A stretch of DNA of 48,157 nucleotides from a virus, in IMG/VR virus record IMGVR_UViG_3300018063_000020, positions 1 to 48,157 of that record; one strand, given 5' to 3'. A program made the translations under genes and the position numbers. The notes beneath the pieces are model-generated. The model saw nothing but the letters and a program-made list of their open reading frames with translations. It made no database searches and was not told where the DNA came from. Shown in pieces: positions 8,358 to 45,373 of this stretch; position 1 is the stretch's first letter; each line of letters begins with the position of its first letter.

Positions 8358-8422
8358 GAAAACTCATGACCCCCAAAAAGCGACATAGCGGGCCGAAATC
8401 AAAGCCCGCGGGGGCGGCTTGA

Positions 8423-10374: not shown

Positions 10375-10378
10375 GGCC

Positions 10379-20937: not shown

Positions 20938-23900
20938 TGGCTGTCGCCACCGTCATGCTCCAGTTCGAGCAAAAGGGTGGCGAGTGGATCGTCAAGTCCA
21001 TCAAGGGCCTGAAGGACACAGGGAAAGCCGCGGACGAGGCCAAGAAGAGCCTCCAGGACATGTTCCGGGGAGACGCCTCCTCGGCCATGGACGCCCTTTC
21101 CGGCAAGACCGGCAAGCTCGGGCAGTATCTCAGCGCCCTGGGTCCGATGGGACTGGCAGCCGGGGCAGGTATCGGTGCTCTCGCCCTGGGTCTCGGGGCC
21201 GCGGCCGCGGCCGGAGCGGGGCTCATATCGTGGGCCGCGGATGCCACGAGGCACCTGATCGACGTCGGCGGCAGCCTCGCCGATCTCGCGGCGAAAACAG
21301 GAGTCGGAGTGGAGGCCCTGCAGGCGCTGGGCTTCGCAGGCTCTCTCGTGGGCGTCTCCATGGAGGAGATCGGCGGCAGCGTCTCCAAGATGCAGAAGGC
21401 GATCGCCGATGGAGACGCGTCCTTCAAGCAGCTCGGCTTGAGCATCGAGCACCTACGCAGCATTGGGCCGGAGCAACAGTTTGCCGAGATCGCCGCAAAA
21501 ATCGCAGCCATCAAGGACCCGACTCAACAGGCCGCCGCAGCCATGGACGTCTTTGGCAAGAGCGGGACGCAACTCCTCCCGCTCATCAAATCGGACATGG
21601 CCGCTGCCGCGGACGAGGCGCGGCGACTCGGCATCATCCTCTCGTCCGAAACGGTCGCGGCGGCTGATGCTCTTGGCGACCAGGTCGACGTCGCGGCGAA
21701 GGCGTGGGAGGCATTCGAGAACCAGGCGGCCGCGGCGCTCGTTGAAACCGGACTCCTTCAGGACGCCGTGGCTCTGGCAACTGATGTCTTCGGCACCATG
21801 ACCACGGTAGTCAAAGAAAACAAGGGCGCATTTAGGGAACTCGCAGACGAGGCCCGGCAACTCCCAGGGATCATGAAGGCCGTGGCCGACGCATCGAGCG
21901 CGGTCACTGGGATTGATCTTGCCGGATGGATACGGGGCGGAATCGGCGCCTTCGCATCGTCCATCCCCGCGCTTCAGACCTTCGCCGGAATCCTGGATAC
22001 CATCAGCGCGAAGTTTCAGAAGGCCAAGGAGACCGCGGCGTCAAAAGGTGTGGCCGCGCTGGCTGGTGCGGAGTCACCCTTCTCGCAGTGGATCGCGACC
22101 CCATCGCCCCTTCAGGGCGCTCCTGGTGTCGGAGTTTTGAAGCCAGGTACTACCTACGACAGCCAGACTGCAATCAAGGCCAGAACAGCGGCGGAGAAAG
22201 CTGCTGCCCAGGAGATGGAAAAGCTCCGCGCCGAAGGCATGAAGGCGTGGGAGGCGGGGCTCAAACAGCAGGTTGTGCTCATTAACGCGAGGTACGAAGA
22301 AGAAAAGCGTCTGCTGTTGGAGGTGCAGGGGATAGCCGAGCAGTCCCTCGCGGCCGAGTTCAAGCGCCAGGATGCGGCATTCGCAGCGAGCCGGATCGAG
22401 GTGTCAGCTTTCGACGCGAAGGTTGCGATGGCGCGACAGGAAATCCTTGACAAGAAGACCCTGCTCGCCGAGCAATTGAAGATCAACGAGGCGCTCTTCA
22501 AAACTGGCGCGTTGAGTAAGTCCGAGTTCGCAGAGGCGCAGGCTGGAATCAAAGAGCAGCTCTCCGGAACAAAGGAGGTCGTCAAGGCCACGTTCGATTG
22601 GGAACAAGCAATCGGCCAGGTTGCGGACGCCTTTGCCATGCTTGGATTCGGGGCCGACTCTACGATTGGAAGAATCATCGGTGGGATGGGCGCCGCCGCC
22701 CAGGCCGGCAAGCAGTTCAAGAATGCAATCGACTCGTGGAAGACGGCCAAGTCTGGAAGCGACAAGGTTGGCGCCGGCGTGCAAGCGGCCGGCGCCGCCT
22801 TCGGGGTCGCGGGGGACATCTACAACTCGGCGAAGGATGAGCGGAGCGAAGGCAAGCGTATCGGCATCGGTGCCGGCAAAGGCGCCGCGTTCGGCATGCA
22901 GGTTGGAGGCCCATACGGCGCACTGATCGGGGCCATTGTCGGTGGCGTCATCGGTGGATTATCAAAGGCGAAGTGGCAAGGAGCCGCAGAAACGGCCGAG
23001 AACGTTTTTGCAAAGCAGTTCGCCGGAGGCAAGATTTCTCAGGCTCTGTCAGAAGACATTCTAAAGACGGCTAAGAAGATCGGCCCACAGGTCAACCAGA
23101 TATTTGGTGATACTGACAAGAGCGGTCTTGGTACTGCCGCACTGCTTCATATCGCCGACGTAATGGTAGAGAGCGGAAAGCCTGCGAGGGAGTTCGCGGA
23201 ACAGGTCGATCAGCTTATCCGCATCGCCTCTGAGGGTGGTCCTATTGCCGCCCAGGCCATCACGGCGCTCGGACCAGCGTTCAGCCAGATAGCCGAGGAG
23301 TCTCTCGCGGCCGGTGAAGTGGGGGCTGATGCTCTGGTCCGACTGATCGACTCCGCGCGAAAGCTAGGTGTGGAGGTCCCAGAGATCAAGGCGCATGTCG
23401 AACAGCAGTTGGCTCAGGCCACGGCCGGAATCGGCGCCGGGATCGGCGGCATCAAGCTCGTCACGCCGGAAGACGCGAAATCCCAGGCCACGATCGCTGG
23501 CGTGACCTTCTGGGCCGTGTTCAAAGAGGAGGGGCTGCTCGCCGCGGGCGACGCCTTCGGGGAGATCAGCGCGAACCTCCTCGAATCGATCGAGAAAGTT
23601 GGCGGCGACACGTCCGCGGCCAAGGCGATTCTCGGGCCGATCCAAGCGATCGTCGACCTCAGCGCAAACGACCTCTTCCGCGGCGCCGCCGAGGGCGCGC
23701 AGGGATTCGCGGACACGCTCTCCGGCCTGGCCAACTCAGCGATTCCGCTCACCACGGGTCAATTCGGCGCCTTCGGTCAGCAGGCGCAGGCCGCGTTTGC
23801 ACAGGCGAAGGAGGGCGGCGCGTCCAGTGAGCAGGCGTTGCTCGCGATCGCCCCACTCCTGCAGACGCTCCAGAAGGCCAGCGCCGCCTACGGGATCGAG

Positions 23901-24521
23901 CTGGACGCGAACACGCAGGGCCTGATCGATCAGGGCAAGGCGGCCGGGATCGCGTTCCCCACGGAGCCCATGGACCGCGTCGTCACCGTGCTCGAAGCGA
24001 TCGCGCGGGCCCTCGGCGCTGAGCTGCCGGTCGCGGCCGCCGCGGGGGCTGGGGCAATCGGAGCCGCGGGTGACGCGATGTCCGAGGCCCTCTCGGCGAC
24101 AGGCGAGGCCGGCTCGGCCGCGATCCAGGGGATGCTCAGCGACTGGCAGAGCGCGGCTGCGGGAGGGATCAGCGTCCCGGTGAGCTTCGAGCCCGGAGCC
24201 ATCCCTGGTGTCCCCGGGCTGGAGTCCCCGGCGCCTGAGAGCTTCGCGGGCGGCTCCGGCGGATTCCAGGACTTCGGGGCCGGGACGCCCGCCGTCCTCC
24301 ATGGCGTCGAGGCGGTCATTCCCTGGAGCGACTTCGCGTCCGGAGGCGTCGCGGGAGGCAAGGGCGGGGACACCGCGATCGAGATGCACCTGAACTTCGC
24401 TCCTGTCGTGAACGGTGCGGGGAACCAGGAAGAGATCCTCGCGATCATGAAGGACGCCTGGGTCAACAACTTTGATGGCATGGTCACCGACGCCGTCGAG
24501 GCGATCCAGGGCCAGCTCTAA
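20937..24521 (+). CDS. Tape measure protein
   Basis: 1194 residues, the longest gene here. The N-terminal part has helical, charged sequence (EWIVKSIKGLKDTGKAADEAKKSL) and a hydrophobic segment LGPMGLAAGAGIGALALGLGAAAAAGAG (in parts, about 75-105). A long helical middle follows, then an Ala/Gly hydrophobic segment (GPYGALIGAIVGGVIGG) near residue 660 and a C-terminal AVLHGVEAVIPWSDFA motif typical of tape measure ends. It sets tail length and is ejected into the host envelope. The part around nt 22150-23200 is less GC-rich, suggesting mosaicism. Residues about 915-985 resemble the small protein at 32781-33071. Confidence 0.92.
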   Translation: MAVATVMLQFEQKGGEWIVKSIKGLKDTGKAADEAKKSLQDMFRGDASSAMDALSGKTGKLGQYLSALGPMGLAAGAGIGALALGLGAAAAAGAGLISWAADATRHLIDVGGSLADLAAKTGVGVEALQALGFAGSLVGVSMEEIGGSVSKMQKAIADGDASFKQLGLSIEHLRSIGPEQQFAEIAAKIAAIKDPTQQAAAAMDVFGKSGTQLLPLIKSDMAAAADEARRLGIILSSETVAAADALGDQVDVAAKAWEAFENQAAAALVETGLLQDAVALATDVFGTMTTVVKENKGAFRELADEARQLPGIMKAVADASSAVTGIDLAGWIRGGIGAFASSIPALQTFAGILDTISAKFQKAKETAASKGVAALAGAESPFSQWIATPSPLQGAPGVGVLKPGTTYDSQTAIKARTAAEKAAAQEMEKLRAEGMKAWEAGLKQQVVLINARYEEEKRLLLEVQGIAEQSLAAEFKRQDAAFAASRIEVSAFDAKVAMARQEILDKKTLLAEQLKINEALFKTGALSKSEFAEAQAGIKEQLSGTKEVVKATFDWEQAIGQVADAFAMLGFGADSTIGRIIGGMGAAAQAGKQFKNAIDSWKTAKSGSDKVGAGVQAAGAAFGVAGDIYNSAKDERSEGKRIGIGAGKGAAFGMQVGGPYGALIGAIVGGVIGGLSKAKWQGAAETAENVFAKQFAGGKISQALSEDILKTAKKIGPQVNQIFGDTDKSGLGTAALLHIADVMVESGKPAREFAEQVDQLIRIASEGGPIAAQAITALGPAFSQIAEESLAAGEVGADALVRLIDSARKLGVEVPEIKAHVEQQLAQATAGIGAGIGGIKLVTPEDAKSQATIAGVTFWAVFKEEGLLAAGDAFGEISANLLESIEKVGGDTSAAKAILGPIQAIVDLSANDLFRGAAEGAQGFADTLSGLANSAIPLTTGQFGAFGQQAQAAFAQAKEGGASSEQALLAIAPLLQTLQKASAAYGIELDANTQGLIDQGKAAGIAFPTEPMDRVVTVLEAIARALGAELPVAAAAGAGAIGAAGDAMSEALSATGEAGSAAIQGMLSDWQSAAAGGISVPVSFEPGAIPGVPGLESPAPESFAGGSGGFQDFGAGTPAVLHGVEAVIPWSDFASGGVAGGKGGDTAIEMHLNFAPVVNGAGNQEEILAIMKDAWVNNFDGMVTDAVEAIQGQL

Positions 24522-26581
24522 TGCTCTCCGCGAACCTGAAAGCGGAGGCCATCGCCGTCTCGTCCTCGTGCGTCTTCCTCGTGGAGCTGGGGCTCCCTGG
24601 CGGGACCCTCCGGTACGCGCAGGAGCCGGTCTCGCAAGGGCTCCTCTCGGCCGGCGCAGCCTCGCTCGGCCACTACGCCGGGTCCATCAAGACCATCTCC
24701 GGTCTGGCGCAGCCGCTCAGCGACCGCGCGGGAGGCCTCCAGTCCATCTCGCCGACGGTGACCATTGTCGATGACGCGAACCGCACGCTCGAGCGGATCT
24801 TTGAGGGCGCGGCCGCGTTTAGCGTGCGCGGCTCGTCGGCTGTGGTCAAGGTCGCCGCCAACCTCACACCTTCCGACTGGCACACCTACCGCACGCTCGA
24901 GATCGACGGTTGGAAGAAGAGTTCGGAGATCACCTGGGAGCTGAAGCTCCGCTGCCCAGACCTCCCCCTCCGCCGGCAAATCGACCGTAACAAGATCATG
25001 GACTACGACTGGCCCAACGCACCCCAGGCTTCGCTGGGGAAGAGCGCGCCCCTTCTCTACGGCCGGTTCGACTCTCGCCGGTGGGGAGCCGGAGGAATGA
25101 TCCCCACCATCGATATCAACAGCTCTGGCTTCGAGCGAGTGGTCTGCCTCGGACGCGCGTGGGCCGTGCCGCGGGTCTTTAAGATCGGGACCGGCCTTCT
25201 CACGCTCACCACGGACTACGCGATCGAGTACCAGACCGTGAACGGGCGGACGTGGACCGTCATCGACCTGGTCGCCGCCCCCGGGTCCAACGCTGTGTCG
25301 TGCGATGCGTACGGCTACGAGACGGTCGGCGATGGAACCGGGAGCCCGATCCTGAACCCGGCGGACCAGCTCAAGCACTTCTTGGTCAACTTCGTCTTCG
25401 GCGACTACGGAGAATCGGGCACCACGCTCTGGGCCGCTGACGGATCAGCGCCGGTCAACGTCGCCTCATTCGCGGCCGCTGCGGCCTTCCTCACGAGCCG
25501 CGAATACCGCGGGTCGAGATACCTCGCGGAGAGCAAGACCGGGCTCGACGAGTTGAACCAGTGGTGCCTCGACCACTGGGCGAAAGCCTTCTGGACGCCT
25601 GGAGGGGAGATCGGGATCCACATCGCCGATCCGACCGACATGGATATCTATCAAGACAACCGCCTCATCGTCTGCCAGAAGCAAGAGCGCGACCGCTTCG
25701 CGATGGACTATGACGGGCAGAACCTGGTCGGGCGCATCATCGTCAGCTACGCCTTCGACAATGAGACCTCCGGCGGGGGCATCAAGAATATCCTCGAGGT
25801 GCGCAACCAGCTGGTCACGGAGAACGCTCCCGAGGAGGTCTCCGTAGAGTGGGCCGACGCCCACCCGACGACGCTCCCCAACAACCTCATTGGCTATGCC
25901 GCAAACACCCTCGAGCTGTGGTTCCGCGGGGACCAGATCTCGGGGAGGGTCGACGGCGAGACGGTCTCGCAGTGGAACGATGAGTCGGGGGCCGCGCGGC
26001 ACTTTACCCAGGGGGCCGACGCGGACCGACCGCACTTCCGCTCGCACCGACATGGCATCAATGGTTTGCCCGCGCTCGAGTTCGATGGGACGACGGAGTT
26101 CATGGCCACGACGGCGGTGCTCAGCGACGTGATTGGCGCGGGGATCTTCACTCTCTATTGCGTCTTCCAGGCGACGACCATCGACACGAATGCGGCGAGC
26201 ACCTGGCAGAACGACGCTCTGGTAGCAGACGCTGGAGGGTTCTGGGGCCTCTTCCTGAAGAGCGCGACGCCGACCGTCCACGCCTTCAACTGGGACGGAT
26301 CGGACGACAACACCAGCCAGCCGATCACGACAGGCGTCCCGTACCTGGTCCGCGCGCGGCACGCAAGCGGGACGCTCTTCTGTTCTGTGAACGGTGGGGT
26401 CGAGTCCTCCGTGGCAAGCGGAAACACATTGACGCTCACGAACGTGCTCCGACTGGGCCGCTCGTCCTCGACGAACTACTACAGCGGTCTCATCGGTGAG
26501 CTCTGCCTTTTCTCGGTGAACCTCGTGACGCCGGACCTTCTCGAGCTGGACGAGTACTTTCTCCGGAAGTGGGGCATCTGA
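24521..26581 (+). CDS. Tail tip protein with C-terminal LamG-like domain
   Basis: A 686-residue protein whose ATG overlaps the tape measure TAA. Residues 1-450 look like a distal tail/hub protein with beta strands (PTVTIVDDANRTLERIF, VVCLGRAWAVPRVFKIG, GDYGESGTTLW, TGLDELNQWCLDHWAKAFW). Residues about 455-686 are a LamG-like jelly roll (ELWFRGDQIS, VSQWNDESG, PALEFDGTTEFM, AFNWDGSDDN, FCSVNGG, VLRLGRSSS, IGELCLFS), closely similar to the free-standing protein at 7195-7959. The appended lectin fold probably binds host surface sugars. The next gene overlaps its stop. Confidence 0.75.
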   Translation: MLSANLKAEAIAVSSSCVFLVELGLPGGTLRYAQEPVSQGLLSAGAASLGHYAGSIKTISGLAQPLSDRAGGLQSISPTVTIVDDANRTLERIFEGAAAFSVRGSSAVVKVAANLTPSDWHTYRTLEIDGWKKSSEITWELKLRCPDLPLRRQIDRNKIMDYDWPNAPQASLGKSAPLLYGRFDSRRWGAGGMIPTIDINSSGFERVVCLGRAWAVPRVFKIGTGLLTLTTDYAIEYQTVNGRTWTVIDLVAAPGSNAVSCDAYGYETVGDGTGSPILNPADQLKHFLVNFVFGDYGESGTTLWAADGSAPVNVASFAAAAAFLTSREYRGSRYLAESKTGLDELNQWCLDHWAKAFWTPGGEIGIHIADPTDMDIYQDNRLIVCQKQERDRFAMDYDGQNLVGRIIVSYAFDNETSGGGIKNILEVRNQLVTENAPEEVSVEWADAHPTTLPNNLIGYAANTLELWFRGDQISGRVDGETVSQWNDESGAARHFTQGADADRPHFRSHRHGINGLPALEFDGTTEFMATTAVLSDVIGAGIFTLYCVFQATTIDTNAASTWQNDALVADAGGFWGLFLKSATPTVHAFNWDGSDDNTSQPITTGVPYLVRARHASGTLFCSVNGGVESSVASGNTLTLTNVLRLGRSSSTNYYSGLIGELCLFSVNLVTPDLLELDEYFLRKWGI

Positions 26582-28194
26582 TGGCTGTCGTTCCTGCCAG
26601 CATCGATCAGGTCCGGGAAGCGCAGTCACGCCGCCTGTTGGACTATTCGCAGCAGCACGTGACGTTCAAGCCCGAGATCGGGCCCGAGGGACTCGACTTC
26701 GAGCCCGGGCAAATCCTGAACGTGGTTCACTACGCCGGGCCCCGTGGGGACGCAGTAGAGGGCGGGTGGACGCAGGACAGGCCGAACCGCCGGATCATGC
26801 GGTATTCCGGCAACGAGGTCGACGCGAAGACCCGCCGCGTCCGAGTGCATCTCGAAGACCTCGAGTTCGCGGGCCGCTTGGCCACGTTCCACGACTCGAT
26901 GCGGAGCCGACGCAGCGCGAGCAACCTCGAGGATGGGGTCGCCCGCTTCCATACGGGAGGAGCGCACCTCGCCTTCTCACACGGCAGCGCCGCATGGGCC
27001 GAGAACCCGGGGGACGGGAGCATCGTCCGGTACGAGGTCAACCAGAAGAGGCTCACGAGCAAAGGACTGCTCCTAGAGCGCTTCGGCCAGAACTACGTGT
27101 TTCGTGGTGCGTTCGACAACGGGGTGGTCAACTGGCTCTCGACTCCGGGATCCGGAACCATCACGGTCGTCGACCTGACGGGGACGGGCACCTCATCGCG
27201 GTTCTTCGACCTGTCGATCACCGCCAACTGCGTGCAGTTCACCGCCGGATCCCCGCAGAGTTTCGCCACGGACATCCATGAGAACGGGATTCCGGTCGCA
27301 GCCGACCTCCCCGCCAACGACATCATCACCTTCAGCGCGGCCCACCTGGACATGGACGGGACGGCCCAGAACTGGTGGCTTCAGAGAGTAGTTGATAGTT
27401 TCTGGTGGAACGACGCCACGGCCGCGTGGCAGAGCGGGGTGCCCAACAACGCCTTTCCTATCACACCGACTACGACCACGATCGTCCGCGACAAGTCGAA
27501 GCCGATTCCGATAGGCGGGACGGCGACAAAGATGAACGTCTTCGTTGGTCTCGCCACTGGAGGCACGGACGGCCGCCGGAACCGGATCTATCAAGTTCAA
27601 CTTGAATCCAAGCGGTGGGCGAGCTCGCCGATCGTCACCCTTGGGACAGCGGTCAACCGGTTCCCAGACCTGTACACCGTGACCAACCACAGCGGAGCGC
27701 GGGTATGGCATGCGACCAGGGGCTCGGGGCACGCCCGGGTGACAACGCTCTGGTCCACGGCCGACATCCCGGGCGAGTTCTACTACTTGCTCCGGGTGGT
27801 GTATGACGCCAACAACCTCATCGAGGTCTACTACCACGGCACGAATGGAACCTGGGTCTTCAGGCGCCTCGCCGGCGGCGTGGACTCCAGCGCGACCATC
27901 CCATTCACAATGACCGCCGGAACTCAGGTCGCCGTCGGGTGGCGATGGGAGAGCAGCGAAGGGGAGCTGGAGTACAAGTACGGCGCGAGCGCCTCAGGCA
28001 ATTGGGGCGACATCTGCGTCAACGGCTCGTGGTCCGGGGTGACGGCCGTCCAGAGCGCAGCTCCGACCGAGACGTCGCGGTCCTGGCTCGAGATCGGTCA
28101 CAACGACGGGCAGTGCGTCGAAGGCCATCTCGGGGACTTCTGGCTTCGTCAGTGGGTGATGTCCGACGAAGAGATGGGGAGGGCCCTGGCGTGA
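26581..28194 (+). CDS. Tail protein with lectin-like beta domains
   Basis: A 537-residue protein; the ATG at 26581 overlaps the upstream TGA and is preferred over a GTG at 26569. The N-terminal 170 residues look like a tail-tip adaptor. The rest is beta-rich with two jelly-roll-like halves, the last with FYYLLRVVYDANNLIEVYYHG, WVFRRLAGG and GELEYKYGAS (in parts), typical of concanavalin A-like or CBM-like folds. Probable minor tail protein involved in host attachment. The following GTG overlaps its stop. Confidence 0.65.
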   Translation: MAVVPASIDQVREAQSRRLLDYSQQHVTFKPEIGPEGLDFEPGQILNVVHYAGPRGDAVEGGWTQDRPNRRIMRYSGNEVDAKTRRVRVHLEDLEFAGRLATFHDSMRSRRSASNLEDGVARFHTGGAHLAFSHGSAAWAENPGDGSIVRYEVNQKRLTSKGLLLERFGQNYVFRGAFDNGVVNWLSTPGSGTITVVDLTGTGTSSRFFDLSITANCVQFTAGSPQSFATDIHENGIPVAADLPANDIITFSAAHLDMDGTAQNWWLQRVVDSFWWNDATAAWQSGVPNNAFPITPTTTTIVRDKSKPIPIGGTATKMNVFVGLATGGTDGRRNRIYQVQLESKRWASSPIVTLGTAVNRFPDLYTVTNHSGARVWHATRGSGHARVTTLWSTADIPGEFYYLLRVVYDANNLIEVYYHGTNGTWVFRRLAGGVDSSATIPFTMTAGTQVAVGWRWESSEGELEYKYGASASGNWGDICVNGSWSGVTAVQSAAPTETSRSWLEIGHNDGQCVEGHLGDFWLRQWVMSDEEMGRALA

Positions 28195-29462
28195 GCGCTG
28201 CACTGCTGATGACGGGTCGCAGGCCGAACCTCTTGGCCCGGGCCAGGGTGGTCACGGTTTCCTCACAGGACACGAAGTATCCCGTCGAGAACATCTACAA
28301 CAACGACCCCGCGACTCCGTTCCGCTTCGGCAGCGCAGGGACCGACGTCGTGATCACAGGGGACCTGGCGGCCTACACGAACGGGGACTTCGAGATCTTC
28401 AGCGCCGGGCAGTTCACTGGGTGGAGCGTGTTCGGTCCGGGGGCCGTCGCCCAGACGGCGAGCGGCCAGGGCGGCTCGACCTCCGCGCTCTCGATCCAGC
28501 GAGGGGCGACTCTCACCTACGAATACCGCGATGTGTCCGTGCGGGCGGGCGAGGAGTGGCGCCTGGACGGGTGGGGGCGGAGGGGCGCCGTCGGGACCGC
28601 GACGGCCACTATCAGGATCCAGAACCGCGCCACGGGGAAGTATCTGACCTCGGGCGGGGCGTGGCAGGTGGCGGTTGCGGACCTCTACACCAACGCGACC
28701 ACGACCTACACGAATGCCCTTCTGACCTTCATCGTGGAGAGCGCGGCGCTTTGCCAGGCGGACGAGGTCCCTCTGCGCCTCGAGCTGATGGCCATCGGTG
28801 GCGGCGCCTCGACGGATACTGCTTTCTTCGACAACGTGTGGATGTGGCCGACCTGGGACTACGTGAGCGCGCACGGGCACAACATTCCGCCCGGGTTCAT
28901 CGTCCCTGAGATCCATTCGAGCACCGACAACTTCAGCGGGAGCGACACGACGGAGGCGCCCACCTACCCGAGCGCCACCATCACGGCCCTCCAGCCGACC
29001 TTCTGGGCGCGGCTCTCCGCGCGGAACATCCGTCGGTACTGCCGCCTCAAGCTGGTGGGCACCCCGGACACCATCATCTACATCGGGGAGCTGGCCTTCG
29101 CGCAGGCCGCGGCGATGAGCCAGTGCTTCGGGTATCCGATCGAGAAGAGCAGGACGCCAAATGCGCACTACGAAGAGACCGGGGGCGGGAACGCCTACAG
29201 CTACCTGGTCTCTTCACAAGACCCGCGCACGTACGTCCTCGACTACCAAGCGAACACGCTCGCCGCCTACGAGGAAGCGGAAACCGCTGTGGCGCGAGCC
29301 CGCGGGAGGCACTATCCCCTGCTCTTTGTCCCGAACGATTCCGAGAGCGTGGTCCTTCACGGGCGTTTCGATGAGACGTTCACGTCGAAGCGGATCCAGG
29401 GGACCGTGACGACCTACCCGCAGCGGATCAAGGAAAGCGCGTTTCCGGGGGCGATCCTCTAG
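28191..29462 (+). CDS. Tail protein with carbohydrate-binding-module-like domain
   Basis: A 423-residue protein from a GTG overlapping the previous TGA. The start VSAALLMTGRRPNLLARARVVTVSSQ and YPVENIYNNDPATPFRFGSAG (in parts) is the pattern of phage proteins that bind baseplate parts through a discoidin-like fold. Residues about 60-215 match a CBM4/9-like jelly roll (NGDFEIFSAGQFTGWSVFG, SIQRGATLTYEYRDVSVRAGEEW, FDNVWMWPTW). The C-terminal part has RKRYPLLF-like region RHYPLLFVPNDSE. It ends the tail operon in a stop shared with the convergent gene. Confidence 0.65.
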   Translation: MSAALLMTGRRPNLLARARVVTVSSQDTKYPVENIYNNDPATPFRFGSAGTDVVITGDLAAYTNGDFEIFSAGQFTGWSVFGPGAVAQTASGQGGSTSALSIQRGATLTYEYRDVSVRAGEEWRLDGWGRRGAVGTATATIRIQNRATGKYLTSGGAWQVAVADLYTNATTTYTNALLTFIVESAALCQADEVPLRLELMAIGGGASTDTAFFDNVWMWPTWDYVSAHGHNIPPGFIVPEIHSSTDNFSGSDTTEAPTYPSATITALQPTFWARLSARNIRRYCRLKLVGTPDTIIYIGELAFAQAAAMSQCFGYPIEKSRTPNAHYEETGGGNAYSYLVSSQDPRTYVLDYQANTLAAYEEAETAVARARGRHYPLLFVPNDSESVVLHGRFDETFTSKRIQGTVTTYPQRIKESAFPGAIL

Positions 29463-30444: not shown

Positions 30445-31170
30445 TCAGTCGCAGCGGCCGGTCAGGCTGAGGGTCAGCCGCCACGCGAACTCGACCCGGG
30501 TTGACCTCCCACCATCGTTCGTCCGCGGGCCGGTCTGACTCGCTCTCGTTTGGATGTGGATCTCGTCGCCGGCGACCAGGTCGAAGCGAGCCGGGTGAGT
30601 CTTCCAGCCATCGTAGTTCCGATCGGTCTCTTTGTGATCGGAGCGCTCGGCGAGCCGCGTGCCCCGCGCGGTCATGTCGAAGCCGGCTTCCCCGATGGAT
30701 CCGCGGTCCCAGGCCAGGAAGCTCCGCACGGAGCACAGGGTGGCTTGCAGGGGGACCTGCAGGAGGTAGTCGGCGACCGTCTGGTCCTGCCCGAGGTAGA
30801 GGACCTGGGGGCCCGGCGAGAACTCGGCCGAGGCGCGGCCAGAGGCGTCAGGGAGCGAGAGGGTCAGCACGGCGGCGCCGTGGGCAGCGGGGGCCACTGC
30901 CAGCGCACTGTAACTGTCGCCCCCAACTGAGGACGGCGAGGGTGGCGCAGCGTCCACTCGTAAGTACGCGCCGCCGTTGGGCCGTGGCGACCCTGGCGCC
31001 ATGACCTCGCGGCCCAAGGCGCCTTGAAGTCGATTTGAAGGCACACCGTCTCTATTATGGATCAACGACTTAGGTGGAGATTCAGGACCAACTATCAGCG
31101 TTCCGACAGCGAGAGCTAGGAGGATCATGCCGGACTGGGTAGCACGTCCGGTGCCGAATGCCTCCGGCAT
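30445..31170 (-). CDS. Putative exported or membrane-anchored protein
   Basis: About 241 residues from 31170, or 227 from 31128 (MILLALAVG). The longest version would overlap the corrected integrase end (31175), so it is unlikely. A hydrophobic segment MILLALAVGTLIVG starts near the N-terminus of the shorter form, then a Pro/Gly region and a beta-rich C-terminal half (VADYLLQVPLQATLCSVRSF, FDLVAGDEIHIQTRA). The gene sits immediately downstream of integrase on the same strand, a usual place for lysogenic-conversion genes. Function unknown. Confidence 0.5.
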   Translation of the reverse strand: MPEAFGTGRATQSGMILLALAVGTLIVGPESPPKSLIHNRDGVPSNRLQGALGREVMAPGSPRPNGGAYLRVDAAPPSPSSVGGDSYSALAVAPAAHGAAVLTLSLPDASGRASAEFSPGPQVLYLGQDQTVADYLLQVPLQATLCSVRSFLAWDRGSIGEAGFDMTARGTRLAERSDHKETDRNYDGWKTHPARFDLVAGDEIHIQTRASQTGPRTNDGGRSTRVEFAWRLTLSLTGRCD

Positions 31171-31174
31171 GCGG

Positions 31175-32291
31175 TTACCCGCGCCTTCGATGGAAGGCCT
31201 CGAGCTTGGACGCTGCATCGCGCAGGTCCTGCTCGGTCACCACGGCGTACCTTCGGTAGATGGACTCGGTCTTGTGCCCCACGAGGCGCATGGCGATTGA
31301 CCGGCTGATCCCTGCCCGCTCCATGTTCCTGGCGGCCGTCCGCCGGAAGTCGTGGCGTAGCCGGCCGGGCAGGCCTGCCGCCTTCGCGGCTGCCTTCCAC
31401 GGGCGATCCCAATCCTTGATGGGCGCTTCCGTTCCGGTGGAACACCCAGGGGACCACGCGCTCCTGCTTGTGCTCCACGCGGTCGGTCTCCTCGCGCAGG
31501 GCCCGGAACACGTCTAGGAGCGTCCCATCTTCGAACGGGTAGTTGAGGGGGAACATCCGCCCCGCACGGTTCTTGTCTTCGCCGGGCTCGAGGCGGAGCC
31601 AACCCTCCTCGAGGTCTACGTGGCGCCACTGTCGCGTGTGGAGTTCTGAGGGAATCCGCCAGCCGGTCACGTAGGCCACGTCCACGAGCCGTTGTAGAAC
31701 CAGATCGCCGAGGTTCGACCGCACGGCCCGATACTGCTGCGGCTCGAAGAAGCCCTTCCGTACGTTGTCCTCCCTCAGGAGACGGATGTGCGGGCGCCTT
31801 AGGACGTGCTGGGAGTGCATCCCCAGGATGAACCCACGGCGGAGCATGGCCAGCTCTCGGTTGACGGTCGCGTTCGCTGCCCCCTCCGCCAATCGAGCCA
31901 CCGCGTAGGCCGCGATCCGGCTCTCCACGATGTCGACCGCGCGGGCGTCATCTCCGAAGAACAGGCGCAGGTGCTTCAGGATCCCCGGGAGAGATCCTGC
32001 GGTCCGATGGCGGTTCAGCGCGTAGTCGGTGGTCACGTATCCTAGGAGATCCCCGAGCGTAGTGCGCTCGATCTCTGGGCCAATCGGGAGCCCCTTGTCC
32101 TGCCGGGAGAGAGTTTCTCGCAGAGCCCGCTCCGCCGCAGCCTCGGAGCGGAAGCCGCCTTTGCGGATCGTCCGTCCCTTCCTACGGTCGTAGAGCTGGT
32201 AGGAAAAGCTGGAGGTGGTGCGCCACTCGCCGGCCGGGCCGCGGTACCGCGCGCGGAAAACTGTACCAGTACCGCGCGCGCGGGGGCTCAT
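31175..32291 (-). pseudogene. int: Tyrosine recombinase (integrase), single frameshift
   Basis: About 371 residues when one base is skipped. The first frame (from ATG 32291) gives an arm-binding-like N-terminus and the first catalytic arginine in TGWRIPSELHTRQW, with lysine in EDKN. Near plus-strand 31425-31430 the frame changes; the second frame gives IKDWDRPWKAA, RHDFRRTAARNM (H-x-x-R), LVGHKTESIYRRY (H and the tyrosine) and ends at 31175. Without correction the frame runs on to 31125 with nonsense sequence. Either an extra A in GGAAGC, an assembly error or real decay. It integrates and excises the phage; start at 32291 overlaps the upstream gene's stop. Confidence 0.8.
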
Positions 32292-32524
32292 CGGATTCGG
32301 AGGCCCAGGCACGCGCGCACGTAGTGGCGGGTGCGCATGGGCGAGGGGGAGGGGGCCCCTGGGTAGTCCTCAAGGCGAACGATCTCCAGGGCCTCCAGGA
32401 TCAGCGCGCGGATCGTCTCTCGCGGGTGGGCGTTGATCGTGGTCCGCGCGTGGACGAGCTGGCCCCGGACGCGGTCGGTGACTACGCGCAGCCGGCGCTG
32501 GCGAGGAGCCTCGCGGGGGCTCAC
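32288..32524 (-). CDS. Small hypothetical protein upstream of integrase
   Basis: A 78-residue protein. The GTG at 32524 overlaps the upstream gene's TGA, and its own stop overlaps the integrase ATG, so the gene is coupled on both sides. Sequence: basic N-terminal half (RQRRLRVVTDRVRGQLVHA), then a helix (HPRETIRALILEALEIVRLED). The size and basic helix would allow an excisionase-like DNA-binding role next to int, but there is no clear HTH. Confidence 0.45.
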   Translation of the reverse strand: MSPREAPRQRRLRVVTDRVRGQLVHARTTINAHPRETIRALILEALEIVRLEDYPGAPSPSPMRTRHYVRACLGLRIR

Positions 32525-32784
32525 GACTCGCGCCCCGCCATCGCGCGCAGCGCCTTCTCCGTGGCCCTCCTGAGCCAGGAGCGCGTGGTCTCCAGCCGGG
32601 CCGTCACCGTCGGGCTCGGCGTGGACGGCGCTCCGGACTCCAGCCGCTCCACGCAGCCGGCGGCTTCTACCCGCGCCTGCGCCAGCGTTTTCTTCCCGGG
32701 GTTGACCCCGCCCAGGACGGACACGACGAGGCCGTCTATCAGGGCCAGCAGGGCGCGCCCCTCGGGGGTCCTGGCGGGGCTCAC
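32521..32784 (-). CDS. Small hypothetical protein (leftward operon)
   Basis: An 87-residue protein, GTG overlapping the upstream TGA. The N-terminus SPARTPEGRALLALIDGLVVSVLGG echoes TARTTEGNALLIAAVDGVSGLVDVL of the next gene upstream, suggesting an old duplication. The rest is helical and charged (LAQARVEAAGCVERL, RLETTRSWLRRATEKAL). No known function. Confidence 0.5.
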   Translation of the reverse strand: MSPARTPEGRALLALIDGLVVSVLGGVNPGKKTLAQARVEAAGCVERLESGAPSTPSPTVTARLETTRSWLRRATEKALRAMAGRES

Positions 32785-33071
32785 CGGGATGCCCTCGCGC
32801 GGCCCCGCCGGAGGTAGCGGCGGCGGTAGTGTTGCTCCCCGGCAAGGTCGAGCTTCAGCGCACGGAGGAGCGGGGCAACCGCCATCCATGCCTCCTCCTG
32901 GCTGGCGCCTGCTTTTCTGGCCTGCTCGAAGGCGGCGCGCGCCTGTTGCTCGAACGCGCTCCAGGGAACCGACACGGCCTCGTGGAGACCTTTGAGGACA
33001 TCGACCAACCCGCTAACACCGTCCACCGCAGCGATCAGAAGGGCGTTGCCTTCTGTGGTGCGGGCGGTCAC
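32781..33071 (-). CDS. Small protein resembling a tape measure segment
   Basis: A 96-residue protein from GTG, coupled to both neighbours by GTGA overlaps. Residues about 15-70 match tape measure residues about 915-985: DGVSGLVDVLKGL against EGAQGFADTLSGL, and FEQQARAAFEQARKAGAS against FGQQAQAAFAQAKEGGAS, then APLLRAL against APLLQTL. In the core 36 aligned residues I count 21 identities. The C-terminus is basic (YRRRYLRRGRARASR). It is encoded with lysogeny genes rather than tail genes, so it may be a decoy, regulator or superinfection factor rather than a virion part. Confidence 0.65.
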   Translation of the reverse strand: MTARTTEGNALLIAAVDGVSGLVDVLKGLHEAVSVPWSAFEQQARAAFEQARKAGASQEEAWMAVAPLLRALKLDLAGEQHYRRRYLRRGRARASR

Positions 33072-33334
33072 GCGTTGGCCTTGGCGAGAGCCGTCCGGAG
33101 CCGGGATGTGTCCACCTCGTGTGGCTCCTTCGCGTCCAACCGCTGAAGCAAGTCTTCGGCGGCACTGACCACTTCTTCGACCAACCGGGGGCGCTCAACT
33201 CTGGCCTCAGTCATGCGGAGTTCGCGCTCGATCTGGTCGGCGTGCTCCGGGCAGCCCCAATACGTCGAGCCCCATGGCGCCAGGATCCGCACGACATCCG
33301 GATGGTGATGGCCCTTCGCGCAAGGCTCGCTCAT
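33068..33334 (-). CDS. Small hypothetical protein with Cys/His cluster
   Basis: An 88-residue protein from ATG 33334, coupled on both sides. The N-terminus CAKGHHHPDVV and WGCPEHADQIERELR carry Cys and His pairs that could bind zinc. The remainder is a charged helix (RLVEEVVSAAEDLLQRLDAKE). No family recognised. Confidence 0.5.
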   Translation of the reverse strand: MSEPCAKGHHHPDVVRILAPWGSTYWGCPEHADQIERELRMTEARVERPRLVEEVVSAAEDLLQRLDAKEPHEVDTSRLRTALAKANA

Positions 33335-33944: not shown

Positions 33945-34222
33945 TCGTTGTCCTCGACCGCGGGCCGGATGTACTTCCGGATCACGTCCTGTAGATCCAG
34001 GTTCGCCGGGACGTCGTCGATGCCGAGGTCTGACGCCCAGGTCAGGAGAGACGCGCGCGCCCCGGCGAGTTCTGTGAGGGCTCCGGCCAACTCCATGTCG
34101 GGGTCGTCACCGTCGGCCCGCACGGCGTTCATGGCCTGGATAAGGCGCAGGTGGTTTGCACGCGCGCTGCCCGCAAGGTAGGCGGTCTCGCGCCTGTCCT
34201 CGGCTTCGGTTGGCTCGCTCAT
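33941..34222 (-). CDS. Small hypothetical helical protein
   Basis: A 93-residue protein. ATG 34222 overlaps the previous gene's stop and replaces a longer candidate that would run into it. It is all-helical in appearance (ETAYLAGSARANHLRLIQAM; GALTELAGARASLLTWASDL) with an acidic linker DGDDPDME. No function known. Confidence 0.5.
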   Translation of the reverse strand: MSEPTEAEDRRETAYLAGSARANHLRLIQAMNAVRADGDDPDMELAGALTELAGARASLLTWASDLGIDDVPANLDLQDVIRKYIRPAVEDNE

Positions 34223-34389
34223 CGTCCGCCCCCCATGGCGTAGTAGACCACGTAGAGCCACCCACCAACCCCGTGAAGGATGGCCCAGAGCACGCTCTTG
34301 TTCAGGCTCCAGGAGATGCAGATGGCGAGGGCGGAGCCGAATCCGAGGCCGCTCTCCACGAGGACCTGGCCGGGCGTGCGGTTGCTCAT
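34219..34389 (-). CDS. Small membrane protein (leftward operon)
   Basis: A 56-residue protein; GAGG lies 5 bases before the ATG. Two hydrophobic segments (LGFGSALAICISWSL; VLWAILHGVGGWLYVVYYAM) suggest two membrane spans. In a lysogeny operon such proteins sometimes act in superinfection exclusion; this is inference from place and topology only. Confidence 0.55.
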   Translation of the reverse strand: MSNRTPGQVLVESGLGFGSALAICISWSLNKSVLWAILHGVGGWLYVVYYAMGGGR

Positions 34390-34408: not shown

Positions 34409-34972
34409 TCAGCGCACGCCATTGAGCCGGAACCGTGCTTTGCGTTCGTACCCCGTCCACACGACGCGCAGCTCGTTGCCTTCCACGAAGACAGTGAGCG
34501 GGAACCACGCGGTTAGCGCATCCGCCTCATAGGTCGCGCCCAACCGGTTCCCGTACTGCTTGCGCTCCGGTTCGGATATCAGCGGCTGGATGACGCGCGC
34601 GGCGTCGTCTGCGCCCTCGGGCATGATGACTATGGCCTTCACGCTCCATGGGCTTCCACTTAGATTCGCCGGGTCCGCATGAATGCGGAGCCACCCGGGC
34701 CTCACCAGGGCGTTAGTAACTTGCTCAAAGGTCAGCGCCTGGTATTTCTGGCGCTCGAGGAACGCCGCCTGAGCGACGCGCCCGTATGGCGTGCTGTACG
34801 TGACGGCCGTCCCGTGCCCCTTCAGGAATCCAGCTCCCGGGATGTGGAGGATGTCCTTGGCCGCCTCTCCGGCCTTGATGGCCTCTCGGATGCGCTCTGG
34901 GGTCATCACGTAGACGACCTGAGCGTGCACGGCGGGCGCCAGGAGCAGGAGCACGGCGGTCAGTGTCTTCAT
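34409..34972 (-). CDS. Secreted/periplasmic protein
   Basis: A 187-residue protein with a perfect AGGAGG ribosome site 6 bases before the ATG. The N-terminus MKTLTAVLLLLAPAVHAQ is a textbook Sec signal peptide with cleavage after A-x-A (VHA). The mature part has mixed alpha/beta pattern (RIREAIKAGEAAKDIL; YGRVAQAAFLERQKYQALTF; LTVFVEGNELRVVWTGYERK, in parts). It lies in the repressor-to-integrase operon and is a candidate lysogenic-conversion protein. No family recognised. Confidence 0.65.
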   Translation of the reverse strand: MKTLTAVLLLLAPAVHAQVVYVMTPERIREAIKAGEAAKDILHIPGAGFLKGHGTAVTYSTPYGRVAQAAFLERQKYQALTFEQVTNALVRPGWLRIHADPANLSGSPWSVKAIVIMPEGADDAARVIQPLISEPERKQYGNRLGATYEADALTAWFPLTVFVEGNELRVVWTGYERKARFRLNGVR

Positions 34973-40374: not shown

Positions 40375-41886
40375 ATGAGCACCAAGAACGGTCGCCTGGA
40401 CGTCGTCGCGGTCGAGATCCGCGATGTCCTCGGCGCGAAGGAGTTCCGCCTCGAGCCGGGCCAGATCAACGTGCTCGAGGGCCGCAACGGGACTGGCAAG
40501 TCGACCGCCCTGGCGGCCTTGCAGGCGGCGCTCGGGGGAGGGAGCCTCGCGAAGCTGGCCCGAGTCGATCCCGCGGGTGCGGAGACCGAGCCCGAGGTCG
40601 TCCTCGTCATCGAGGGCCAGGGGAACGAGACCTACCGCGTCGAGCGGACTGGCGAGAAGGTCCGCGTCCGCGCGCGCGTGGGGGACACGGCCGCCTTCGA
40701 GGACGTCGGCAAACCACAGGGTTGGCTCTCTTCGCTCTTCGATGGCAGCGGTTCGAATCCGGTCCGCTTCCTGACCGCCCCGGATAAAGAGCGGGCCCTG
40801 CTCCTCCTCGAGGCGCTCCCGCTGAAGTTCGATCGGTCCGCGCTCCTGGCCGAGATGGAGATCGCTCCCGCCGAGATCCGTCCGGTCCCGGCCGGGCTCC
40901 ACCCGCTCGAGGAGATCTCCCTCATCCGGCAATCCGTGTTCGACACCCGGACTGGCGTCAACCGCGACCAAAAGAGCGCCGCCTCTTCCGCCGATCAGCT
41001 TCGGCGCAACCTGCCGGCGGTGATCCCCACGGCGAACGGGACCGAGGTCGAGGCGGCCACGGCGCGAGTGACCGAACTCTCAGCCTCGTTTGCACGCGAT
41101 GAGCAGCGCGCGGAGTCCGCCCTGGCGCAGGCGCTCACCGAGGCGCGGTCGGAGCACGACCAGGCCGAGGCTCGGATCCGGGCCGAGCACAAGGAAGCGG
41201 TGAGGACGAAGCGCGCGGCGCACGATGCCCTCGCCGCCGAGCTCCGCGCCGCCGTTGAGCGGCAGATCGCCGAGGAAGTGGCCGCCATCGAGGCCCAGGT
41301 GGAGGCCTTGCGGGAAGAGACGAACGGGAAGCTCGAGAGCGTCGCGACCGTCCTCGGCGCGGCGCAGGACGAGGCGAACCGCGACCGCGCGGCCGCGGAC
41401 CGTGGACTCGCTTCGCTGCACGAACAGCTCGCCCAGGCGAAAGAGACCCTGGCCGTGCTGCGCGAACGGGCCGAGGGTGGCGCGAAGGCGCGCGCCCTGG
41501 CCGAGCAGGCGAACGAGTTCGACGCCCAGGTCGACCGGCTCTCGGCCGAGAGCGAGCGGCTGACGAAGGCGCTGGTCGCGCTCGACGCCCACCGGCGGCG
41601 GCTGGCGGAGAACCTGCCGATCCCGGGACTCTCGATCGAGGACCGGGTGATCCGAGTCAATGGAATCGAGTTCGGCCAGCTCAACACGGCCCAGCGTGTC
41701 GGCATTGCCGTCCAGGTCTCTTGTCTTCGCGCGCAGGGGCAGAGGCTCCCGGTCGTCTTCGTCGACGGAGCGGAGGCCCTCGATCGCGAGCACTTCGAGG
41801 CGCTCGTCTCCGCGCTCAAGGCAAACGGGGTGCAGGCCTTTGTGGGGCGCGTGGCGGATCACGACCTCACGGTTCAGGTCGCATGA
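40375..41886 (+). CDS. SMC/SbcC-like coiled-coil ATPase
   Basis: A 503-residue protein with AGGGAGGGAG upstream. Walker A GRNGTGKST at about residues 36-44. A coiled coil spans about 225-415 (EHDQAEARIRAEHKEAVRTK, AEEVAAIEAQVEAL, LHEQLAQAKETLAVL). The C-terminal lobe has FGQLNTAQRVGIAVQ in place of the usual ABC signature and a Walker B VVFVDGAEALD, where the usual acidic catalytic residue after Asp is Gly. It groups with YqaJ and the annealing protein as an end-processing complex like gp46/SbcC. Confidence 0.75.
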   Translation: MSTKNGRLDVVAVEIRDVLGAKEFRLEPGQINVLEGRNGTGKSTALAALQAALGGGSLAKLARVDPAGAETEPEVVLVIEGQGNETYRVERTGEKVRVRARVGDTAAFEDVGKPQGWLSSLFDGSGSNPVRFLTAPDKERALLLLEALPLKFDRSALLAEMEIAPAEIRPVPAGLHPLEEISLIRQSVFDTRTGVNRDQKSAASSADQLRRNLPAVIPTANGTEVEAATARVTELSASFARDEQRAESALAQALTEARSEHDQAEARIRAEHKEAVRTKRAAHDALAAELRAAVERQIAEEVAAIEAQVEALREETNGKLESVATVLGAAQDEANRDRAAADRGLASLHEQLAQAKETLAVLRERAEGGAKARALAEQANEFDAQVDRLSAESERLTKALVALDAHRRRLAENLPIPGLSIEDRVIRVNGIEFGQLNTAQRVGIAVQVSCLRAQGQRLPVVFVDGAEALDREHFEALVSALKANGVQAFVGRVADHDLTVQVA

Positions 41887-42208: not shown

Positions 42209-42291
42209 CCCTTCCTCAGCTTCTCCTCGTGGACGCGCTCGAGACCGAGCTGCGCGAGTTCGCGCAAGACATCGCTAAGGGGCTAGCGTGA
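42205..42291 (+). CDS. Mini-ORF (28 residues) coupled to methyltransferase gene
   Basis: A 28-residue frame (MTLPQLLLVDALETELREF start) whose ATG overlaps the previous stop and whose TGA overlaps the methyltransferase GTG. The double overlap suggests it serves in translational coupling or is a real micro-protein with one amphipathic helix. Confidence 0.35.
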   Translation: MTLPQLLLVDALETELREFAQDIAKGLA

Positions 42292-44258
42292 TCATCGCTC
42301 CCCGCGACGTCGAGATCCGCCACTTCCATCTGTTCTGCGGCCTGGGCGGCGGCGCCAGGGGTTTCAATGCCGGCCGCGCCCGGGTGGGCCACGCCGAGGC
42401 GCACTTCCGTTGCATCGGGGGTATCGACTCAGACCCTGCCGCCATTCGCGACTTCGATCGCCTGGCCGGCGTGCGGGGGACCGCACTTGACCTGTTCGCG
42501 CGCGACCAGTACGCGGCCTTCCATGGCCACGAGCCGCCCGAGGGCTGGCGTGAGGCGGGCCCCGACGACATCCGACGTGCGGCCGGGGGAGAGCGCCCGC
42601 ACATCCTCTTCGGGTCGGCTCCGTGCAAGGGCTTCAGCGGGCTGCTCTCGTCGGAGCGGGCTGCGGGGGGCCGCTATCAGGCGCTCAACCAGCTCGCGAT
42701 CCGCGGCCTGTGGCTTGCCCTCGAGGCCTGGGTGGACGACCCTCCGGAGTTCTTCCTCTGGGAAAACGTGCCCCGTATCGCGACCCGCGGCCGCGAGGTC
42801 CTCGACGTCATGGTCCGGCTGCTTGAGTCCTACGGCTATGCGGTAGCCGAGACGACGCACGACTGTGGAGAGCTGGGGAATCTGGCGCAGAGCCGGAAGC
42901 GGTTCCTCCTGGTGGCGCGTCACCGCGAGAAGGTCCCCCCGTTCCTCTACGAGCCGGCGCGGCGGCCGCTCCGGGGAGTTGGGGAGGTGCTCGGCGCATT
43001 CCCGCTTCCGGACGATCAAGGCGCTGGCCCGATGCACGCGATGCGACGGCTCCAGTGGAAGACCTGGGTCCGTCTCGCGTTCGTTGAGGCGGGCGGGGAC
43101 TGGCGGTCGCTGGAGACGCTCCGGGTCGAGGCCGGGCACCTGGCCGACTTCGGCATCGTGCGCGAGGGGATCTACCGTGGCGTCCTCGGAGTAACGCCGT
43201 GGGACGAGCCGGCAGCGACGATCACTGGTGCCGCGACGCCGACACGCGGGGCCTTTTCGGTAGCCGATCCTCGCGTGCCGTCTGGGTACGGAGAGTATGG
43301 GCAGCTCGGCGTGATCCCCTGGGGCAGTCCCGCGGGCGCGATCTCGGGCCAGTCCACTCCGGGCGGCGGGCGCTACGCAGTGGCCGATCCCCGCCTGCCC
43401 GAAGCAAGCAACCGACATGCAACGGCCCTCCGAGTGGTTCCCTGGGACGGTACGGCGGGGACCGTGATCGGTCCACATCGGCCCGGCGGTGGAGACCAGT
43501 CCGTAGCGGACCCGCGGATCGGGGCCAACGGTCCCAGGTTCAACAACGTCTACCGAGTCGTCCGTTGGGGTGACCCAAGCTCAGCGGTCACGGGGCCCTC
43601 GGGTCGTGGCCTCTCGGTCGCTGATCCCCGCGCCGAGGGCTGGGGCGGCCGCGGCAAATACCGGGTCACGCGCTTCGAAGATCCGGCTGGTACCGTCATC
43701 GCTGCGAGCACGACTGGGAACGGGGCCTTCGCGGTAGCGGACCCGCGGTCGAAGCTCGGCAATGGGGGCTGGCCCAGCGCTGGCTGCGCCTATGGAGTCG
43801 TGCCGTGGGATGCGCCAGCGGGGGCGGTGTCCGCCTCGGCCGGGCCAGATAGCGGGCGATTCAGCGTCGCGGATCCGCGGAGCCTTCGTGGAAATCCGAC
43901 CTCAAATGAGGGCGAAAAACTAGAGAGCCTCCCTGCCCCCGACTTCCGGCTCGTCGCCCTGATCCGCGCCCTCGACGGCACCTGGCACCGGCCCTTCACG
44001 ACGCTGGAGCTGGCCGCGCTTCAGGGGCTCGTCGACCCGGGCGAGCACCTTGAGCTCCAGGGCGCCTCCGACTCCGCGTGGCGCGAGCGCATCGGGAACG
44101 CGGTTCCCTCGCCAGCGGCCGCCGCGATCGCGTCCGTGATGGGGACGACGTTACTCCTGGCCTGGGCGGGCGAGACGTTCGTCCTCAGCTCCGCGCCGAT
44201 CTGGGTCCGGCCCGTCGTGGTAGCGCTCTCGGTCGCACAGCCGGAGGCCCGGGGGTGA
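42288..44258 (+). CDS. DNA (cytosine-5) methyltransferase
   Basis: A 656-residue protein from GTG. C5-methyltransferase motifs are clear: I FCGLGGGARGF (about 16-26), IV GSAPCKGFSGLL with the catalytic Cys at about 113, VI LWENVP (about 156-161), VIII QSRKRFLLV (about 201-209) and X RIGNAVPSPAA (about 601-611). Between VIII and X, where the recognition domain lies, are six repeats of about 36 residues, each ending in VADPR (about 304-530). It probably protects phage DNA from restriction or alters regulation. No partner nuclease is seen. Confidence 0.9.
   Translation: MIIAPRDVEIRHFHLFCGLGGGARGFNAGRARVGHAEAHFRCIGGIDSDPAAIRDFDRLAGVRGTALDLFARDQYAAFHGHEPPEGWREAGPDDIRRAAGGERPHILFGSAPCKGFSGLLSSERAAGGRYQALNQLAIRGLWLALEAWVDDPPEFFLWENVPRIATRGREVLDVMVRLLESYGYAVAETTHDCGELGNLAQSRKRFLLVARHREKVPPFLYEPARRPLRGVGEVLGAFPLPDDQGAGPMHAMRRLQWKTWVRLAFVEAGGDWRSLETLRVEAGHLADFGIVREGIYRGVLGVTPWDEPAATITGAATPTRGAFSVADPRVPSGYGEYGQLGVIPWGSPAGAISGQSTPGGGRYAVADPRLPEASNRHATALRVVPWDGTAGTVIGPHRPGGGDQSVADPRIGANGPRFNNVYRVVRWGDPSSAVTGPSGRGLSVADPRAEGWGGRGKYRVTRFEDPAGTVIAASTTGNGAFAVADPRSKLGNGGWPSAGCAYGVVPWDAPAGAVSASAGPDSGRFSVADPRSLRGNPTSNEGEKLESLPAPDFRLVALIRALDGTWHRPFTTLELAALQGLVDPGEHLELQGASDSAWRERIGNAVPSPAAAAIASVMGTTLLLAWAGETFVLSSAPIWVRPVVVALSVAQPEARG
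43195..43880 (+). repeat. Six VADPR repeats in methyltransferase recognition region
   Basis: Units have the plan (V/I)(P/R)W-x(5)-A-(T/A)-(V/I)-(T/S)G-x(n)-G-(R/A)-F-(S/A)-V-ADPR. At DNA level each ends in gt(a/g)gc(g/c)ga(t/c)cc. The units alternate in loop length. Single or double units occur in related phage methyltransferases; six is many. Confidence 0.8.
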
Positions 44259-45373
44259 AACTGCGCGCCCCGTTCCCTTGGTTCGGCGGGAAGTCCCGAG
44301 TCGCCCACGTCGTGTGGGAGAGCTTCGGCGACGTTGCCAACTACGTCGAGCCGTTCTTCGGGAGCGGTGCCGTGCTCCTGGGCCGTCCGCACGAGGCCCG
44401 CGTTGAGACCGTGAACGACCTCGACTGCTACCTGGCCAACTTCTGGCGGGCGATCTCGGCAGACCCCGACGCGGTGGCCGCGGCCGCGGACTGGCCGATC
44501 AACGAGGCAGACCTGCACGCGCGGCACCGTTGGCTCGTGGACCAGACCGCCTTTCGCGAGCGCATGAAGACGGACCCCGACTACTTCGACGTGAAGATCG
44601 CGGGGTGGTGGGTGTGGGGGCTGTGCCAGTGGATCGGGAGCGGTTGGTGCTCGGAGCCCTCGTGGACCGGCCGGCCTGGCTGCCACAACGGGGCCCGGGG
44701 GATGTTCACGACCAGGTGGAACTCGCGGCCTGCCATGCAGGAGATGGGCGTCCACGGGCGGCGGCTGGTGCGGAGGCGGCCGAGGCTGGGCGGCAAGAAT
44801 GATGTTGGCGTCCACAAGTCGGCGCTTTGGGCCAAGCGTCCAGCGTGGCGGCGCGGAGGCGTGGGGGTCAACTCGAATGGCCAGGGCGACGCCCGGAGCG
44901 CGGCCCTGCGCGAGTGGTTCGGGAGCCTGCAGGACCGGCTGCGGCGCGTCCGCGTGTGCTGCGGGGACTGGAAGCGGATTCTCGGGCCGAGCCCGACCGT
45001 CCACATCGGCGTGACCGGGGTCTTCCTCGACCCGCCATACGAGCCGACGGAGATCGCCAAGGGCGCGGGCCGGCACGGGTTAGCGAAGACAGACAAGCTC
45101 TACTCGCACCACACCGCCGGCGTGTCGGCGGAGGTGCGGGCCTGGGCCCTCGAGCACGGGGACGATCCAAAGCTGCGCATCGCGCTCTGCGGATACGAGG
45201 GCGAACATGAGATGCCCTCGAGCTGGTCCGTGCACGCTTGGGTAGCCTCAGGCGGCTACTCGAACCGCGGCAAGAACCCTCGCCGTAACGCTGGGAGGGA
45301 GAGGATCTGGCTCTCTCCACACTGCCTGAGGCCGGCGGCTTCCAGCCCCCTGTTCGCCGAGATCACATCGTGA
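44255..45373 (+). CDS. DNA adenine-N6 methyltransferase (D12 class)
   Basis: A 372-residue protein from GTG overlapping the C5 methyltransferase stop. D12-class motifs: N-terminal FPWFGGKSRV, SAM-binding VEPFFGSGAVL (about 30-40), VNDLDCYLANFWRA and the catalytic DPPY (about 259-262). A large central insertion (about 130-225) with GWWVWGLCQWIGSGW and Trp/Arg-rich sequence is probably target recognition. It forms a two-methyltransferase modification block with the gene before it. Specificity unknown. Confidence 0.9.
   Translation: MKLRAPFPWFGGKSRVAHVVWESFGDVANYVEPFFGSGAVLLGRPHEARVETVNDLDCYLANFWRAISADPDAVAAAADWPINEADLHARHRWLVDQTAFRERMKTDPDYFDVKIAGWWVWGLCQWIGSGWCSEPSWTGRPGCHNGARGMFTTRWNSRPAMQEMGVHGRRLVRRRPRLGGKNDVGVHKSALWAKRPAWRRGGVGVNSNGQGDARSAALREWFGSLQDRLRRVRVCCGDWKRILGPSPTVHIGVTGVFLDPPYEPTEIAKGAGRHGLAKTDKLYSHHTAGVSAEVRAWALEHGDDPKLRIALCGYEGEHEMPSSWSVHAWVASGGYSNRGKNPRRNAGRERIWLSPHCLRPAASSPLFAEITS

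Follow-up and report, generated by a model that had tools for sequence, protein, structure and literature searches.

What is a free-standing relative of the tail tape measure protein (TMP) doing next to a phage integrase gene, and what might it do for the phage that carries it? The question is raised by a small open reading frame (ORF) in a 48,157-base virus record from IMG/VR (GC 67%), the whole of which was analyzed and is referred to below as the window. The plus strand of the window carries genes for a portal, a protease, a major head protein, the TMP, and further tail-region proteins, with those of the tail tip at 24521-29462. A leftward gene string (34972-31125, minus strand) runs from a signal-peptide-like protein and a hydrophobic protein through several small ORFs, the ORF of interest, and two more small ORFs to a tyrosine integrase (31125-32312, minus strand; PHROG integrase, E 4e-17). 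The ORF of interest (32781-33071, minus strand) encodes a protein of 96 residues, here called q, from a GTG start; it sits in this compact string with the integrase, 8.5 kb from the late tail genes, which lie on the other strand.

The immediate setting of q is that of a tightly packed coding region. Overlaps of 4 nt link q to both neighbors, its start to the stop of the preceding small gene (33068-33334, minus strand; 88 aa) and its stop to the GTG start of the following one (32521-32784, minus strand; 87 aa), and an AAGG is located 7 nt before its start codon. GC by codon position (0.75/0.53/0.78) is coding-like and similar to that of neighboring genes. The preceding gene had no family match in family library searches. 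The N-terminal 28 residues of q resemble the N terminus of the next gene product (ARTxEGxALL..DG; Smith-Waterman score 51, z 5.2), a resemblance that makes a chimeric origin, a local duplication, or a start module common to the two possible. We considered 32521-32784 as a second TMP fragment and rejected it, as the TMP profile gives no match there. Searches of q against Pfam, PHROGs, NCBIfam, PADLOC, and PDB sequences returned nothing (0 families matched among the PADLOC-DB 2.0.0 anti-phage defence models), and no signal or membrane segment was seen in its sequence. At the head of the string, 34409-34972 (minus strand) has a signal-peptide-like start and 34219-34386 (minus strand) encodes a short hydrophobic protein; both are without a family match and are candidates for lysogenic conversion or exclusion. 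The integrase gene is frameshifted near position 31425, with its first part matching the integrase of a related contig (L003, below) and its C-terminal catalytic part lying in another frame, which reflects either a sequencing error or a broken gene.

The TMP itself (20937-24521, plus strand; 1194 aa), the ruler that determines tail length, is recognized by PHROG tape measure families over residues 85-268 (E down to 6e-18). Residues 9-73 of q align with TMP residues 911-979 (23667-23873, plus strand; 44% identity by tblastn), which bears out the preliminary description of a 96-residue product matching about 65 residues of the TMP. BLASTP finds 31 of 70 positions identical (E 3e-6 with composition adjustment, 3e-14 unadjusted), and HMMER within the record gives E 6.6e-13. 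Within the core, AFEQQARAAFEQARKAGASQEEAWMAVAPLLRALK, 21 of 35 residues are identical; the earlier count had the identities right and the length at 36. The two sequences have in common the core pattern AFxQQAxAAFxQAxxxGASxEqAxxAxAPLL.

Both proteins are Ala-rich and helical, so that chance or generic Ala/Gln-rich helix composition had to be weighed as the source of the similarity. The Smith-Waterman score of q against the TMP is 133, far above 3000 composition-preserving shuffles (mean 39.4, sd 5.4, maximum 62). Aligned by hhalign with a profile of the C-terminal domain built from TMPs only, q matches with a probability of 96.9% (E 1.3e-10). When all window ORFs were searched with the TMP-only profile, q scored E 1.9e-12 and the next non-TMP ORF E 2, and across the 9312 ORFs of all fetched loci the matches consisted of TMPs and q only; the match is therefore not that of a generic Ala/Gln helix. 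Within the window, the 38-nt degenerate pattern written for AFxxQAxAAFxQA has exactly two matches, one in the TMP gene and one in q; 100 shuffles gave none, and elsewhere in IMG/VR the pattern was found in four contigs only, each time at the same site of a TMP gene of this family. Shuffles, hhalign, pattern counts, and profile searches thus leave composition or coincidence a negligible chance as an explanation. The preliminary description had proposed pairwise alignment and HMM searches as its checks, and both are positive; the outcome it had named as telling against it, a generic helical resemblance with no profile match, is not what we observed. On sequence grounds, q is truly homologous to a piece of about 70 residues of the phage's own TMP. 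Since it is a stand-alone ORF of 96 aa in the leftward string, and not part of a long helical protein in the tail operon, we regard q as a TMP-derived fragment and not as a TMP.

The source segment belongs to a conserved C-terminal module of the TMP (the C-module; 23016-24056, plus strand), about 340 aa long and shared at 44-53% identity. We compared the window TMP with those of other IMG/VR contigs, among them L003 (IMGVR_UViG_3300005683_000027; TMP gene at 7184-11035), L006 (135-4379), and L013 (6766-9882). The C-module is common to L003 and L006-L008 and partly to L013. In L003 and L006-L008 it is the only part of the TMP that matches the window, the other parts being unmatched, whereas the L013 TMP shares an N-terminal block (152-335) strongly and the C-module weakly. 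These TMPs look modular, with the C-module alone held in common with L003 and L006-L008 and the N-terminal block with L013, a pattern suggesting that modules were exchanged or separately retained. Within the TMPs of L003 and L006-L008, no other part is as well conserved as the C-module, as expected for an interaction surface.

AlphaFold models place helices at residues 912-933, 940-959, and about 964-985 of the TMP and at residues 6-32, 37-53, and 58-94 of q, with modest mean pLDDT (72 for the TMP module and 62 for q). The correspondence between these helices suggests that q is a predicted three-helix unit from the C-module, with ends close to predicted helix boundaries. A fold search was run with the TMP module, as the model of q was too low in confidence for a search of its own; in the PDB it gave no match with E below 0.03, and among viral models its best match was another tape measure protein (E 2.6e-3). 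The C terminus of the lambda TMP, gpH, forms a three-helix coiled coil as a trimer within the tail tip (PMC10721106). Although q and the C-module are alike in their homology over about 68 residues and in having the same predicted helical unit, q differs in being a free protein encoded on the opposite strand, without the rest of the TMP, and in having a private Arg-rich C-terminal tail that is absent from the TMP.

How old is the relationship? According to the preliminary description, q was copied from the tape measure; the homology is real, and the divergence is ancient. Codons of q and the TMP agree at 0.77 of first positions, 0.74 of second positions, and 0.43 of third positions, with pN at 0.31 and pS at 0.72, against 0.61 ± 0.07 expected for random synonymous codons. 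Because first and second positions are conserved while third positions are saturated, the protein sequence was constrained for most of the divergence. Moreover, q stands at the same distance from the L003 TMP (score 131, 21/35 identical) as from the window's own. Saturated synonymous sites and this equal distance led us to reject a recent duplication of the phage's own gene. As judged from these comparisons, q and the TMP parted long ago, either as an old paralogue within the lineage or through later capture from an unsampled TMP, and with a single example of q the two routes are indistinguishable. The constraint may even date from a time when the sequence was still inside the TMP of another phage.

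We looked widely for a second q. In IMG/VR, searches at the sensitivity used (exact 8-mers, alignments, and strict and loose motifs) yielded no further free-standing copy and picked up nothing but TMPs of this family and ORFs unrelated to q. The GTDB contigs, scanned twice, gave no relative of q, tblastn of INPHARED phages with q or the TMP module gave no match, and neither did tblastn of plasmids, for which the TMP module alone was used. We therefore treat q as a singleton at this sensitivity, at which divergent relatives could escape and with few relatives of the phage sampled. The preliminary description had suggested looking for the gene pair in related prophages. The only relative with a readable repressor-integrase region is L003, whose contig, with its integrase and CI-like repressor, has no counterpart of q. 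An integrase-based search added one further relative, L013; its contig ends just upstream of the integrase and says nothing on the presence of q.

When would q be made? The claim that it is expressed with lysogeny genes goes beyond what is observed, a strand shared with the integrase; no HTH repressor was recognized in the leftward string itself, and no sigma-70 promoter match was found on its strand. The left operons of lambda-type phages that end in int are early lytic operons. In L003, a related integrase lies on the same strand as a CI-like HTH protein (Pfam HTH_3, E 3e-13), with a Cro-like protein encoded divergently. By analogy, expression of q in the lysogen is plausible.

Our tentative leading reading is that q is a diverged, free fragment of the TMP C-module that poisons tail initiation in related phages and so protects the lysogen. 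In such a scheme, q would bind the usual partner of the C-module (tail-tip hub or initiator proteins, the tail assembly chaperone, or a TMP oligomer), and as a non-productive TMP fragment would stop tail initiation of related phages. The phage's own tail would be spared through the divergence of q from its own TMP or through shut-off of q in the late phase. Interference is plausible in that q derives from a conserved module, which in lambda faces the tail tip (PMC10721106) and which is a region tied to inhibition by Tab. Of the two steps that a free fragment might block, assembly and ejection, we prefer assembly. The full form of the idea, in which part of a structural ruler has become, in a temperate phage, a free dominant-negative immunity factor that jams the tail initiation of relatives and is diverged enough to leave the phage's own tail untouched, strikes us as rather unlikely. 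Counting against interference are the single example, with no other stand-alone copy and none in L003, a leftward string in which neither a promoter match nor a repressor was found, and the Arg-rich tail, which has no equivalent in the TMP.

The closest precedent is Tab (tail assembly blocker), a protein of 83 aa that is made constitutively by a prophage and blocks tail assembly, and susceptibility to which maps to the C-terminal region of the TMP in Mu-like phages of P. aeruginosa (PMC10884400). Like Tab of Pseudomonas phage JBD26, q is small, phage-encoded, and oriented against the tail genes; Tab targets the TMP C-terminal region, and q is related to that region (PMC10884400). The tab gene, however, lies between the small and large terminase genes, with its own promoter and an adjoining anti-Tab partner, whereas q lies beside an integrase with no partner detected (PMC10884400). 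Tab, with which q was compared by description only, has no reported similarity to TMPs or to proteins of known function (PMC10884400), so the precedent covers the target and not the fragment mechanism. A second small protein from mobile elements, Tai (tail assembly inhibition) of PICIs and phi80, is likewise said to stop tail assembly, as is proposed for q; the parts of that source drawn on here report no relationship to the TMP, and the comparison is again by description only (PMC11364771).

The main rival to interference by a free C-module fragment is that q has no selected function at all: a TMP fragment captured into a turnover-prone string and translated there, it would be debris left by recombination or else a neutral orphan. 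We consider this possible, if somewhat doubtful. It would fit a singleton that is missing from L003 and whose N terminus resembles a neighboring ORF, as it would in a chimera. The integrase gene next to it carries a frameshift, and the genome has another duplicated tail domain (7195-7959 versus the C terminus of 24521-26581). Against it, the frame is intact and coding-like in its codon GC, it overlaps both neighbors, and its start is preceded by an AAGG. Synonymous saturation combined with a conserved protein opposes long neutral drift, although it would leave room for recent capture from a TMP not yet sampled.

It is unlikely, in our judgment, that q acts instead as an early counter-defence decoy that mimics the C-module and soaks up a TMP-sensing or TMP-binding protein of the Tab or SNIPE kind, shielding the real TMP. 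The early timing of int-ending leftward operons in lambda-type phages would suit such a role. Defence proteins do target TMPs, Tab at the C-terminal region and SNIPE by engaging them at DNA entry (PMC10884400, PMC13190303), but SNIPE acts at injection, ahead of any phage gene expression. Anti-Tab, the one known inhibitor of Tab, binds Tab, is encoded in the late operon, and is not said to resemble TMPs. A TMP-binding defence is not known from the host.

We regard as improbable a role for q in superinfection exclusion at DNA entry, where it would occupy the inner-membrane or host partner of the incoming TMP in the manner of HK97 gp15. That protein of the inner membrane blocks DNA entry in a TMP-dependent way; q would be like it in a proposed link with the TMP of incoming phages. 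Unlike gp15, which acts at DNA entry from the membrane, q is predicted to be soluble and helical, and with no signal or membrane segment it would need to act from the cytoplasm. The same operon does contain the signal-peptide-like 34409-34972 and the hydrophobic 34219-34386, and genome entry is a step in which TMPs are involved (PMC9022992, PMC13190303).

Very improbable is an accessory function in the phage's own tail assembly, for example as a nucleation factor or a modulator of tail length that co-assembles with its own TMP. What q keeps is a helical unit that in the TMP probably oligomerizes or docks, but its distance from the late tail genes and its opposite orientation argue against it, as does L003, which has a C-module 66% identical and manages without q.

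Should q indeed interfere with related phages, it would extend an emerging theme in which bacterial and prophage defences such as Tab and SNIPE are directed at TMPs. Small blockers directed at the TMP are already known; interference made from a virion part would be new, if functional, and we found no report, among the open-licence papers searched, of a phage-encoded free fragment homologous to the TMP C-module. If q has been kept as a free, diverged fragment of this kind, it would suggest that phages can build interference proteins from their own virion parts; q would then have a parallel in the animal restriction factors that derive from viruses, and the C-module would be marked as a surface of interest.

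Finally, we noted several other features of the window. The second duplicated tail domain, in 7195-7959 (plus strand) and the C terminus of 24521-26581 (plus strand), shows 35% identity over about 220 aa (E 8e-31), and both copies match the virion structural protein family PHROG 10356. An AAA/SbcC-like ATPase (40375-41886, plus strand; PHROG 1499) has weak similarity to LmuB of Lamassu (E 2e-13). At the right end, near genes for C5 and D12 DNA methyltransferases (42288-45373), 46794-48155 (plus strand) encodes a DUF5131 protein (phage Gp37/Gp68) that matches the PADLOC candidate families PDC-M41B (E 3e-65) and PDC-M30B (E 8e-63).
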